From the NCBI GenBank assembly GCA_010093515.1, contig MU001700.1:71123-109456 (forward strand): a DNA stretch of 38,334 nt. Direction: 5' to 3'. Under the pieces are notes generated by a model that was not told where the DNA came from, did not search any database, and worked only from the letters and a program-made list of their open reading frames with translations. Positions 1,812 through 35,100 of the stretch are shown here, piece by piece (position 1 is the first letter of the stretch; each line of letters opens with the position of its first letter). Source of the DNA: Lineolata rhizophorae. Lineage: Eukaryota > Ascomycota > Dothideomycetes > Lineolatales > Lineolataceae. Both the position numbers and the translations under genes were made by a program.

Positions 1812-2378
1812 TCAACCGCGCCGGAGGACAAACGCTCCATCTTGATCGAAGTAACCGAGGCGCGCAACGAGCAAGATCGCTTTGTCCCGGATTTGTTTCT
1901 CGACTTGCGAATGTCAGCTAAGCACTAATATTATATACCCTTTAAAGAAGACTTACACCACTGAATAAGGAACTCTTCATCAAAAGGTTCCTCATCCGCT
2001 CCGATAGTACGGTTGATGAAGTTGAGCAACAATGTAAGTTCAGGCCCATTAGGTCGGCGACAGACCAGAAAGAATTCTTCTAGAAGCGCCAACGCCATGA
2101 GAGGTATTCTCTCGGTATTTAGCCGAATACTGGATTCTAGTGTCAATGTGTCGACGACCCTAGCTTGTAAGCTTGTGTTACTTAGTATTGAGTATGTTCG
2201 CTTACATGTTCACGAACTTCTTAGCGAAGAGACGCCAGAAGACATTCTTAACCTGGTGATATGGTCCCGGAGCTAACAACCGATATAGAGAGTTTGCGAC
2301 GCCTCCTTCAACTGCGAAAATTGATTCGAGTCCCTCCACGATAGTTGGTTCGTGCCGAAAAAGCGTTGAAAAAATCAT
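1812..2378 (-). CDS. Unrecognised spliced gene beside the HMG-box gene
   Basis: Three exons on the minus strand join in frame: 2206-2378, 1957-2159 and 1812-1903. Intron one (2160-2205) has a GTAAGC donor and a TAG acceptor. Intron two (1904-1956) has a GTAAGT donor, a GCTGAC branch site and an AAG acceptor. From the ATG at 2378 the product is about 155 aa, beginning MIFSTLFRHEPTIVEGLESI and ending LVARLGYFDQDGAFVLRRG. It is mostly helical-looking, with no membrane segment or known motif. The frame is open upstream of 2378 to about 2524, so the true start may lie further 5'. It is transcribed away from the HMG-box gene, which suggests another mating-type-locus gene (a MAT1-1-2 or MAT1-2-x type protein), but I do not recognise the family. 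Confidence 0.5.
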
Positions 2379-2431
2379 GTGGCGCTGAGTAAAAATCGGT
2401 TGTTCGAGGTATTTTTGCGGCGTACGAATCG

Positions 2432-2710
2432 CTAGCGCATTATCGCGAACGCGTCGGTCTGCCGTTGGTGGTCGGCCACCGCCGTTGAATAAGCAGAGTC
2501 CAACAAGCGTCCAAAATCGTCAAGGTAAGCTTCCGTATCCTGCGATAGAGCAGCGGGTTGATACGCTGCATTGTGGACCGAGCGAAAGTATTTTTGGAGC
2601 TTCGACGGGAGCACGCCATCCTTCCAACCCAGAAGTCCTGTGAGCAGTTCCTCGCGATCGTTGCCTTGCGCCTCGTAGTGATTCTCGAGGGCGCTAAAAG
2701 CGTGACCCAT
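2432..2710 (-). CDS. Small ORF, possible 5' exon of the preceding gene
   Basis: A 92-codon frame with an ATG at 2710, beginning MGHAFSALENHYEAQGNDRE and ending DHQRQTDAFAIMR. It looks like real protein (mixed charged and hydrophobic residues, helical pattern). It lies directly upstream of the 1812-2378 exons on the same strand but in a different frame. No intron with a good donor joins them; the least bad one uses GTGGCC and a CTCAG acceptor. Either this is a separate short gene, or the two form one gene with an unusual intron or a frame change near 2440-2520. Confidence 0.35.
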   Translation of the reverse strand: MGHAFSALENHYEAQGNDREELLTGLLGWKDGVLPSKLQKYFRSVHNAAYQPAALSQDTEAYLDDFGRLLDSAYSTAVADHQRQTDAFAIMR

Positions 2711-2888: not shown

Positions 2889-3095
2889 ACTGGTTGCCTA
2901 GAGCAGTTGCCGAGAGCGGTTGCCTAGAGCGGTTGTTAGGCGCGGTTGCCAGGCGCGATTGCCAGGCGCTGTTGCTAGTCGTAGCTACTTAATGGTTGCT
3001 AGGGTCCGCTTGCTAAGACGGCTGCTAGGTTTGTTTGCTAGGACGGTTGCTAGGGCCGGTTGCTAGGTGAATATTTGGCACGGTTGCTGGGCAAC
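2889..3095. repeat. 13-bp tandem repeat of GTTGCYAGG half-sites in a divergent promoter
   Basis: About fourteen units of mostly 13 bp (GTTGCCTAGAGCG, GTTGCCAGGCGCG, GTTGCTAGGGCCG and so on) run from 2889 to 3075. They sit between two divergently transcribed genes. The series ends in a perfect inverted repeat, GTTGC-TGG-GCAAC, at 3083-3095. GTTGCY(A/T)RG matches the half-site of the RFX/Crt1 winged-helix family (full site GTTGCCATGGCAAC-like). The array could be a clustered regulatory site, or a minisatellite that happens to resemble one. Confidence 0.6.
3083..3095. promoter_or_regulatory. Perfect palindrome GTTGC-N3-GCAAC, RFX/X-box-like
   Basis: The 13 bases GTTGCTGGGCAAC are two 5-bp inverted arms around TGG, about 170 bp upstream of the HMG-box start codon. 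The layout agrees with the RFX (S. cerevisiae Crt1, S. pombe Sak1) consensus GTNRCC-N(0-3)-RGYAAC. Binding is an inference. Confidence 0.4.
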
Positions 3096-3265: not shown

Positions 3266-4437
3266 ATGTCTTCGAACATGGAAACTATCACTCTTGAGGA
3301 ACCTCTCGCGTCTCTTTTTGAGTTTCGCGATTTCGAGTTTGAACATGCTTGGCTTCAAATCTTGATGCAAATCGCAGCGGGTCGATATGTTAATGTCATG
3401 CCTGGTCAAGCTGCGCATCAGATCGGTCGCGATGGAGTTCGGCGCTGCGCTATGCGCATCAGGTAAAAATTCGCGATATATGTACCTCTTACCGTAACTA
3501 ACTAAGGATTTAGTGGCCTCCGCCATCGCGACGTTGAAGTTACCACCTATGTCGCTTATGGTGAGGTGATGGTCGGCTTCTCCCCTCGCAATGAATACAT
3601 GGGTCTTCCGATCGACGAGAACAATAAAAACCAGCATGTCGACGCTCTAGCTGGACATCAGAGTGTTGCTCGGAACAATGAGAATGTTCAAAATGACCAA
3701 AATACTGTTCGGCCTGCTGCCAATGCTGGAAATCCCCCTCGCCCGGCAAATCGGTTCATCATTTTTCGCAAGGAGCGACACGAGTACTACAAATCCACCG
3801 GAATTCCTGCCAAAGAAATTTGTAAGTTATTGAAGTTTATTCATTATAATATCGCATAGCTAACATTATACCAGCTAAAATTGTCAGCAAAGAATGGAAA
3901 GAGCTTGGCCAACAAGAGAAAAAAGTGTACTACGACAAAGAAAATGAGGCCAAAGCTGCTCATGCTGCTGCATTTCCTGGATATCACTATTCCCAGCGTA
4001 AGTCGCGCCATGCTCGTCGGGCCGCGATCTTGGCGGAAGAGAATGCAGTTCGTCGGGAAATTCAAACGCCTCCTCGGGACAACAATGCTATTCAGCCTAC
4101 TGCAGTTGTTCCAAACGTCAACATGTCCAACTTCAACGTGGAGCAACTTGAAAACAATAATACTCGTCCTGCTCCGCAATTTCAGGCTCCGAATCCGGGA
4201 GTTCCGCATGGACGGGTCTACAACTTTGATCCCTTTGGAGCAGACTTGGGCGGCACTATTAATCAGATGAATTTCGCCAACTCGAACGGACCAGAGATGA
4301 TACCGATCACTGGAATGAGCGCGAGATCTAATGTTTGGGACCTTGCGACAGTCGGCTCAATTGAAGGGTCTCTTATTGAAGCGCTTGAAACGGCCAACAG
4401 AGAGCGTATTGCTGGAAACCTCTCGCGTTACTCCTAA
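3266..4437 (+). CDS. MAT1-2-1: MATA_HMG-box mating-type transcription factor (MAT1-2-1-like)
   Basis: Three exons, 3266-3462, 3514-3821 and 3875-4437, join in frame to 355 aa. The introns are 51 and 53 nt, with GTAAAA and GTAAGT donors, CTAAC branch sites and TAG/CAG acceptors. The start is the first ATG of the frame (MSSNMETITLEEP). An HMG box lies at about residues 142-220: RPANRFIIFRKERHEYY, then EISKIVSKEWKEL, then EAKAAHAAAFPGYHYSQRKS and a basic RHARR tail. The second intron splits the Ser codon of EIS|K. That is the conserved intron position of fungal mating-type HMG genes. The protein should be a nuclear, sequence-specific DNA-binding regulator of mating identity. MAT1-1-3 also has this box and intron, so it is the main alternative. 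The C-terminal half is Asn- and Pro-rich, with no other domain seen. The HMG-box assignment is firm; the exact MAT subtype is less so. Confidence 0.82.
3463..3513 (+). other. Intron 1 of the HMG-box gene
   Basis: Donor GTAAAA, branch TAACTAAC just upstream of the TTTAG acceptor, 51 nt. It restores the frame between RCAMRI and SGLRHRD. Confidence 0.8.
3822..3874 (+). other. Intron 2 of the HMG-box gene, conserved Ser-codon position
   Basis: Donor GTAAGT, branch GCTAAC, acceptor CCAG, 53 nt. It interrupts the Ser codon (T|CT) inside the HMG box, the position shared by fungal MAT HMG genes. Confidence 0.88.
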
Positions 4438-22781: not shown

Positions 22782-23096
22782 AGGTAAGTCAATGCGAGAG
22801 AGGGGGAAGTGAGTCAATGCGAGAGAAGGAGGAGTGAGTTAATGCGAAAGAGAAAAGAGTGAGTTAATACGAGAGAAGGGGAAGAGTGAGTTAATGCGAG
22901 AGGGACAGGTGAGTCAATGCGAGAAGGGAGAAGTGAGTCAATGAGAGAGGGAGAAGTGAGTTAATGCGAGAAAGGAGAAGTGAGTCAATGCGAGAAGAGG
23001 AGAAGTGAGTTAATGCGAAAAGGGAAAAGGTAAGTCAATGCAAGAAGGGAAGAGATAAGTCAATGCGAGAAGAGAAGAGGTAAGTCAATGCGAAAG
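22782..23096. repeat. ~28-bp minisatellite with GTGAGTYAATGCGAGA core
   Basis: About twelve copies of GTRAGTYAATGCGAGA followed by 10-14 purines (AGGGGGAA or AGAAGGAG types). Unit length drifts between about 24 and 31 bp because the purine tail varies. The core contains a sequence identical to a fungal 5' splice donor (GTGAGT/GTAAGT) in every copy. Not coding. Confidence 0.85.
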
Positions 23097-23589
23097 GAGG
23101 AGAAGATGTACTTGCTAGTTGGGGAAGTACGTCTAGAGCACTGCGACAATGTCGGACTCGCGACGAAAACGCGAGTGGTGACGACGTGAATGGCGCGCCG
23201 GCGAGCTCGTCGAACGGGTCGGCGATGACTGTCAAAGAAGACAAAGGTTAGCGACGAGTTTTTCAAAGTTGAAGGTTAACTTGGTGGCGGTGCTGTTTGT
23301 GGGATCGACAGCAGAGCCGTTTGTAAAGAGAAGTGATGAGCTAATGCCGGGAAAGGGGAAAAGATGTAATTGCCAGTTGAAGGGATACGTCGTGAACCCG
23401 ACGTGGATGGCGCCCGTCGAGTGAGTCGAGCGAGTCAAGCGAGTCGGCGACGACCGCTCAGGGGAAGGTGGCGATGCTATTTGTAGGGTCGGTGGCGGAG
23501 GCGTTTTTGTAAGGAGTTGGTTAATGAGGATGGGAGGAAGAGAATACAGCTGCCAGTTGGAGGGGTATAAATACCTGGAGTGTCCCCAA
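23097..23589. other. Gene-free tract with a diverged duplication
   Basis: About 22650-22760 and 23220-23330 share GACGACTGTYAAAGAAGRCAA, GTTAGCGACGAGTTTTTC, AAGTTGGAGGTTA and a GGTGCTGTTTGTGG segment. So the minisatellite lies between two copies of a roughly 110-bp block. A third, weaker match follows near 23448-23515. No gene is seen. Confidence 0.6.
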
Positions 23590-33921: not shown

Positions 33922-35100
33922 TCAAAAAGGATGGTTGTTTCTGGAGAAAACGCCGGAGACTCCTATGTGAGTACGGCATTTCCAACCTATAGCGTGCTGA
34001 AGTGCCTCGTACTCTTTCGTCGTGAGCACCTGCCCCGCTGGCAAGCGGTTCTGGAAGTCGGGTGCAAGCAAAACCGGGAGAAGAGCCTTGACCTCAGGCG
34101 TGGTGCCCAGTCTCCGCAAGGCCTCCCCAAGAGGCCGTGCTGGGACGTGCAGGCTCCCGTCATCGTCGTCTTCGGGCTGCGTGAGAAGTAGTCGACCCAG
34201 TTCGTACATGGACTTTACATCACTGGCGGCATCAGCCGGCGGATCGACCGTCCGTTCATTCTCAGTCTCCACCAGCTTGATCACCTTGGCGATGCACCAT
34301 GCGCCCGCGAAGATGGGCGGTTTGACGTCGTGCGAGCCAAGGACTCCTGGCTGAAGCCACGAGATGATGGTGGATCCCACAGAATACACGTCTGAGACGT
34401 GGCGGCAGCCATATCCAGCCCAGACCTCGGGAGCGCGCATGGCCGGCGACTGCATTTGCACCTGGTCGTAGCCGTCCGGTTGACAGAGACCCATGTCTGA
34501 GATCTTGACCATCGGGTTTCGTCCGTCGACGTTGGAGCAGAGCACATTGTCGGGCTTACAATCCGTCCAGACGTTTTTCGTGAGACCAACATCTTTTACG
34601 CCTCCCAACGTGCCCTCGAAGAGTGCGGCCATGAAGACAGGATTATCCTTGTACTTGGCCGGATCAAGCGCGCTCAGCGGCACGTCGAGATATTCCAGTA
34701 CGAGACAGTAGGGATTCGACTGCACGGCTTGTTCAAAGGCAGCGGTGTCGCCATGGAAGCCGATTTCGCTTATGTACTGGTTGATCTCGTCGTACAGAGA
34801 CCGGACGTAGCGGCTCTGATAGATTGCTCGCTTATCATATGCCTCGCGCTCTCTTCTTAGCCATTTTTGCTTTTTTGCCGTGGCGGTGTTGATGATGGCC
34901 CTGAAAGACACGCATTGGACGCTGGCATTCTCCGATTGGACGTGGCATACTTACCACTTCGCCGGCCTTTGATATCCGGAGTCGTTAAGAATTTCGGCTT
35001 TCCAGACGGTAGAGAGAACAGTCTGATTCAGCTGAAGCCGTTCCACGAGTTTGTAGGTATATTTGCGGCCGGTAAGGAATTTGCCGACGCTGAACGACAT
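33922..35100 (-). CDS. Atypical protein kinase-like protein
   Basis: Two exons, 34955-35100 and 33922-34900, encode 374 aa. The intron (34901-34954) has a GTAAGT donor and a TTTCAG acceptor and joins RPAKW to AIINTATAKK. The N-terminus reads MSFSVGKFLTGRKYTYKLVE, then RLQLNQTVLSTVWKAEI (nucleotide loop region), PAKWAIINTATAKK (Lys strand), PYCLVLEYLDVPLSAL (hinge), NVWTDCKPDNVLCS (catalytic loop, with WTD for HRD), VKISDMGLCQ (DMG for DFG), MQSPAMRAPEVWAGYGCRHV (APE) and SDVYSVGSTIISW. The Asp of the loop, the Asn and the Asp of DMG are kept, so activity is possible. It resembles orphan kinases common in fungal accessory regions and is not FunK1. No nearby partner gene suggests a role. Confidence 0.75.

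Follow-up and report, generated by a model that had tools for sequence, protein, structure and literature searches.

The window, by which we mean the whole stretch of 38,334 nucleotides analysed (C31:71123-109456 of a 31-Mb genome in 48 contigs), carries two divergently oriented genes whose putative start codons, at 2710 (minus strand) and 3266 (plus strand), enclose a tandem array of short repeat units (Table 1). Since the array lies between these two starts, the preliminary description was geometrically right in placing it in a divergent promoter. The plus-strand gene encodes an HMG-box protein (Pfam HMG_box, 3.1e-13) whose box resembles the SOX-type boxes in PDB. Its second intron splits a serine codon within the HMG box, and an intron at this codon is a hallmark of MAT1-2-1; the gene thus combines the two features by which MAT1-2 is recognized, a sequence-specific-class HMG box and an intron in its serine codon. 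An HMG_box profile search of the genome gave 11 matches (E up to 0.01), and among the nine loci read (a weak match on C6 excluded) the window gene is by eye the only one of MAT1-2-1 type. As for the other loci, L033 is Ste11-like by appearance and L040 is a neighbouring exon of L032. A genome search for the MAT alpha family gave no match, from which the absence of this family does not follow. The SLA2-type I_LWEQ domain was found on another contig (C4, about 1.069 Mb; L030, L042 and L043), and therefore the usual neighbour of MAT is unlinked here; MAT-SLA2 linkage is common, not universal.

Table 1. Features of the MAT-type locus (positions in the window)
Feature	Position	Strand	Basis
Divergent gene (longest splice models encode about 240 aa)	1931..2710	-	open frames, Pfam scan
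Divergent promoter, the 555 bp that separate the putative start codons	2711..3265	.	sequence, open frames
Half-site run 1, seven units at exact 13-bp spacing	2893..2983	+	TRF, lag identity, register
Degenerate unit, next unit 11 bp on	2984..2994	+	register
Half-site run 2, six GTTGCTAGG-type units, spacings 14, 12, 13, 12, 13	2995..3071	+	TRF, register
Palindromic X-box GTTGC-TGG-GCAAC, the sole complete RFX-type site of the array	3083..3095	.	pattern scans
HMG-box gene, MAT1-2-1 type, introns 3463-3513 and 3822-3874	3266..4437	+	Pfam, PDB, intron borders by eye

The divergent gene is less well defined. No family was matched in a Pfam scan, possible introns lie at 2205-2160 and 1958-1904, and the 3′ end is uncertain, probably beyond 1931. 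A junction near 2385-2480 is not explained by ordinary splice sites, and this early break in the frame possibly reflects either decay or an assembly error. Farther along the minus strand, a long open frame at 15578-18004 matches Pkinase_fungal (1.7e-104), and a second, weaker protein-kinase frame lies at 33925-34950 (Pkinase, 4.7e-10).

The tandem array itself, at 2893-3095, is confirmed. Placing each unit where it agrees best with GTTGCYAGG, allowing shifts of up to 2 bp, gives 15 in-register units, mostly 13 bp apart, that start at 2893, 2906, 2919, 2932, 2945, 2958, 2971, 2984, 2995, 3009, 3021, 3034, 3046, 3059 and 3083. The first seven spacings are exactly 13 bp, and those that follow are 11, 14, 12, 13, 12, 13 and 24. 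The self-identity of the array reaches 0.54 at lag 13, compared with values between 0.15 and 0.30 for lags 1-12 and 14-23, and TRF reports it as two pieces (2892-2975 and 2994-3067). The fourteen 13-bp units originally proposed thus hold as regards tandem arrangement and 13-bp periodicity, the count being 15, or 14 once the degenerate unit at 2984 is excluded, whereas the spacing is not uniform. The perfect palindrome said to end the series is indeed there, the terminal unit being GTTGCTGGGCAAC.

A motif GTTGCYAGG common to all units proved too strong a statement. GTTGC and GTTGCY are each exact in 9 of the 15 units, GTTGCYA in five, the full GTTGCYAGG in four (three of them GTTGCTAGG, the fourth GTTGCCAGG) and GTTGYCA in a single one, while the loose RFX half-site RTHNYY fits 11/15. 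These and the other assessments of RFX likeness used consensus strings rather than a published RFX matrix. A correctly placed right half-site, GCAAC, occurs in the last unit and is missing from the other 14. The terminal palindrome satisfies the full-site layout RTHNYY-N0-3-RGNAAC, which matches six further places in the window, and it is the window's single site of the form GTTGCY-N1-2-RGCAAC. All five plus-strand occurrences of GTTGCYA in the window fall inside the array; the four on the minus strand lie elsewhere. Nine GTTGC on one strand within 207 bp compare with at most four in the best 207-bp stretch when the window is resampled 200 times under a first-order Markov model, with both strands counted. 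This enrichment shows the presence of a tandem repeat; function is not thereby demonstrated.

Could a protein encoded in the same genome read such an array? A search for the RFX domain identified one gene (96.5 bits), whose product has an intact DNA-binding domain. This domain aligns to that of human RFX1 (1dp7, E 6.5e-15), with TRRLG-RG-SKYHY in common; relative to RFX5 (8zjr) there are two changes within this segment, and the RFX1 chain scores higher. Judging from its domain and from the motifs of the units, an RFX protein is the putative reader that fits the array best. The operators of yeast Crt1/Rfx1 comprise several RFX-like sites in one promoter, and here, too, several such sites share a promoter in a genome with one RFX gene. 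Unlike the yeast operators, these sites form a regular head-to-tail 13-bp array, and the candidate target is a MAT-type gene. The terminal unit, like the RFX X-box GTTGCCA-TGGCAAC, is a complete palindrome of two half-sites; however, the classical X-box is 14 bp long, whereas the terminal site has 13 bp and the remaining units have no right half.

The closest likeness is to the non-palindromic site of RFX5 and RFX7, which the accessible part of one report gives as CCTAGCAACA, containing CCTAGCAAC (PMC11344851). The unit form GTTGCTAGG is the exact reverse complement of CCTAGCAAC, nine bases of that site, and three units have precisely this form. This is a likeness of sites; the fungal protein scores better against the RFX1 chain. 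According to the same partial source, RFX5/7 sites often lie near CCAAT boxes (PMC11344851), whereas the array is a tandem series and neither strand of the 555-bp intergenic region contains CCAAT. The specificity of RFX monomers is said, in the available text of PMC10530576, to be common to animal and fungal proteins. On the fungal side, the available portion of PMC11423578 cites Fusarium graminearum Rfx1 (Fgwing16) as a regulator of DNA repair whose deletion leads to perithecial defects, and it describes another winged-helix protein, FgWING27, as affecting MAT gene expression. The TpRfx1 motif TN3DN3GNAAC, as it appears in the part of PMC6174557 at hand, fits one of the 15 units and not the palindrome. 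A table row in the accessible part of PMC5592922 appears to assign 0 phenotypes to the one RFX mutant of Neurospora. The layout of RFX/Crt1 sites ascribed to the array in the preliminary description is thus partly borne out, by the GTTGC core, the nine-base RFX5/7 match, the palindrome at the end and the RFX gene, but the full site is present in only one unit of 15.

Occurrence of this minisatellite at numerous unrelated loci, the outcome named beforehand as speaking against a regulatory reading, was looked for by a DNA search that skips simple repeats and common words, and no second copy was found in the 31-Mb genome at E up to 10. Looser patterns of paired or tripled half-sites do exceed their controls, but by eye many of the matches are simple repeats or scattered pairs. 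TTGCYWG-N6-TTGCYWG with one mismatch occurs at 219 places (84 for the control); among the matches listed, 13 are exact, three of these belonging to the array and several more being simple repeats of the TTGCTTG type. Triplets of TTGCY spaced by 12 to 14 bp were found 86 times against 20 (three in the array, many being simple or 12-bp repeats by eye), and two GTTGCYA within 25 bp 44 times against 27, again with three in the array. No relatives were confirmed in bacterial and archaeal contigs, a result of little weight given that these are the wrong domains of life. Among the open-access papers listed for this subject, no title or opening part of an abstract described such an array.

Our preference, by a narrow margin, is to regard the array as a functional homotypic cluster of RFX half-sites, rather than as a neutral minisatellite. 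This reading builds on things observed: the array, the palindrome, the single copy in the DNA search, the RFX gene and the consensus match. The neutral explanation, in which slippage in non-coding DNA produced a 13-bp repeat whose RFX likeness is a coincidence picked out afterwards, is nevertheless nearly as probable. Tandem repeats are common in this region (TRF lists 41 rows in 38 kb, with some overlap), and the array has just one full site. Against it, a GCAAC completing a palindrome by chance would be expected in about 1 to 4 percent of arrays of this kind (a hand estimate for nine GTTGC units and one to four spacings), and the lack of a second copy in the DNA search (common words skipped) also counts against it.

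The two explanations differ in how they account for the pattern of conservation among the units. The five least-mismatched columns are exactly GTTGC, with a mismatch rate of 0.093 versus 0.251 overall (column dispersion p 0.0005). Permuting columns (5 of 13) gives p 0.006 for entropy and 0.036 for adjacent changes, or 0.012 and 0.046 without the degenerate unit, and by entropy GTTGC ranks second among the 13 contiguous column choices; these tests lean toward the core, since the units were aligned on GTTGCYAGG itself and shared ancestry was ignored. Adjacent units have linkers in common, block by block, just as recent duplication predicts, and on the neutral explanation the core appears conserved because copies within blocks share recent ancestry. 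Yet GTTGC stays constant across blocks that differ in their remaining columns, which argues against neutrality. The window also contains a 25-bp satellite of about 13 copies (22787-23105), with an AATGC core conserved as unevenly as that of the MAT array. Its column dispersion (p 0.0006) favours the neutral side; the five further arrays compared, which together with it were picked from the window's TRF rows, are not similarly uneven, four of them having at most five copies. Taken together, the column statistics are only suggestive of selection on the GTTGC core.

A different reader is conceivable as well. CGGTTG agrees with the Myb consensus CNGTTR, and the array might then be a series of Myb-type sites read by a developmental Myb protein. 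CNGTTR fits 8/15 units, and Fusarium has Myb-type proteins, MYT1 to MYT3, which the accessible portions of the literature connect with female fertility or perithecia. We nonetheless consider this improbable: column 5 (C in 14/15 units) and column 6 (a pyrimidine in 15/15) fall outside the Myb core, more units agree with the looser RFX half-site, and a GTTGC/GCAAC palindrome is not expected of Myb sites. Less probable still is a structural repeat with no sequence-specific reader, serving nucleosome exclusion, recombination or the spacing of two core promoters, for which the central position between two divergent starts would be suitable and nothing specific speaks.

How might a cluster of RFX half-sites operate in a promoter common to the MAT1-2-1-type gene and the divergent gene next to it? 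The unit is as long as the GTTGC-N3-GCAAC site, and the array probably grew by head-to-tail duplication of this 13-bp unit, with the left half retained (GTTGCY in 9/15 units) and the right half missing except in the last. A dimer of an Rfx1/Crt1-type protein would bind the terminal X-box, which lies 170 bp upstream of the MAT start codon; this site would serve as a high-affinity anchor, and additional RFX molecules would bind the half-sites weakly, by avidity. Bound RFX might then set how strongly the MAT gene, and perhaps its neighbour, is expressed according to the state of the cell cycle or of DNA integrity. We infer both the direction of regulation and the action on two genes. In yeast, repression by Crt1 is relieved on a signal, and our guess would be a similar mode here. 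That the MAT gene is wired directly to an RFX regulator of cell cycle and genome integrity, through a graded half-site array that ends in a full site, drives both divergent genes and by its length tunes mating competence, is a bolder proposal that we regard as doubtful. The upstream control of fungal mating-type genes is poorly known, and a direct RFX input, if real, would link the expression of these genes to genome integrity and the cell cycle. A tandem array, which can change in length by slippage, would lend itself naturally to tuning.

If RFX reads such sites, complete X-boxes elsewhere in the genome are worth a look. There are 16 perfect GTTGCY-N1-2-RGCAAC sites, the array palindrome included, versus 11 for the control, and the classical 14-mer GTTGCCATGGCAAC is not among them. 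Split by spacing, 13-bp X-boxes number 12 with that of the array (4 for the reversed control; hand binomial 0.04, one-sided) and 11 without it (0.06), and 14-bp X-boxes number 4 versus 7; this split was made post hoc, and the reversed control contains CpG and is an imperfect match. Another search with pooled spacings gave 152 versus 121, and GTTGCYAGG itself occurs 448 times genome-wide versus 389 for the control with the motif reversed. The excess of X-boxes (16 versus 11, 152 versus 121) is too weak to prove an RFX regulon, and this argument was set aside.

Three X-boxes lie close to genes of note, with distances counted by eye from the first Met. One is about 170 bp before a kinesin (L052), another (L048) precedes by about 140 bp a gene whose SprT-like match is below threshold, and the third (L049, at 1501) has an XPG-family nuclease gene on one side and a divergent gene of no known family on the other; judged by this location, the last intergenic region is a candidate RFX target promoter. 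Kinesin, XPG and SprT-like neighbours would suit an RFX protein concerned with genome integrity. The remaining 12 X-boxes are in coding frames or beside unknown or unrelated genes. A covering frame of at least 250 aa is present at 5 of the 15 other X-box loci (L045, L047, L048, L051 and L054), that of L048 beginning before its likely ATG, and at three of four control loci read, drawn from 11 sites, numbers too small for a claim. A Pfam scan of frames at 13 of these 15 loci (all except L046 and L050) added a protein kinase, a ubiquitin hydrolase, an AMP-binding enzyme and one chance-level match, and the remaining scanned frames gave no Pfam match. At L048, a PAF acetylhydrolase match lies upstream of the X-box, and a subthreshold HMG_box match (C6:671070-671189) follows the SprT-like match by about 450 bp; the gene possibly encodes a single SprT/HMG-box protein.
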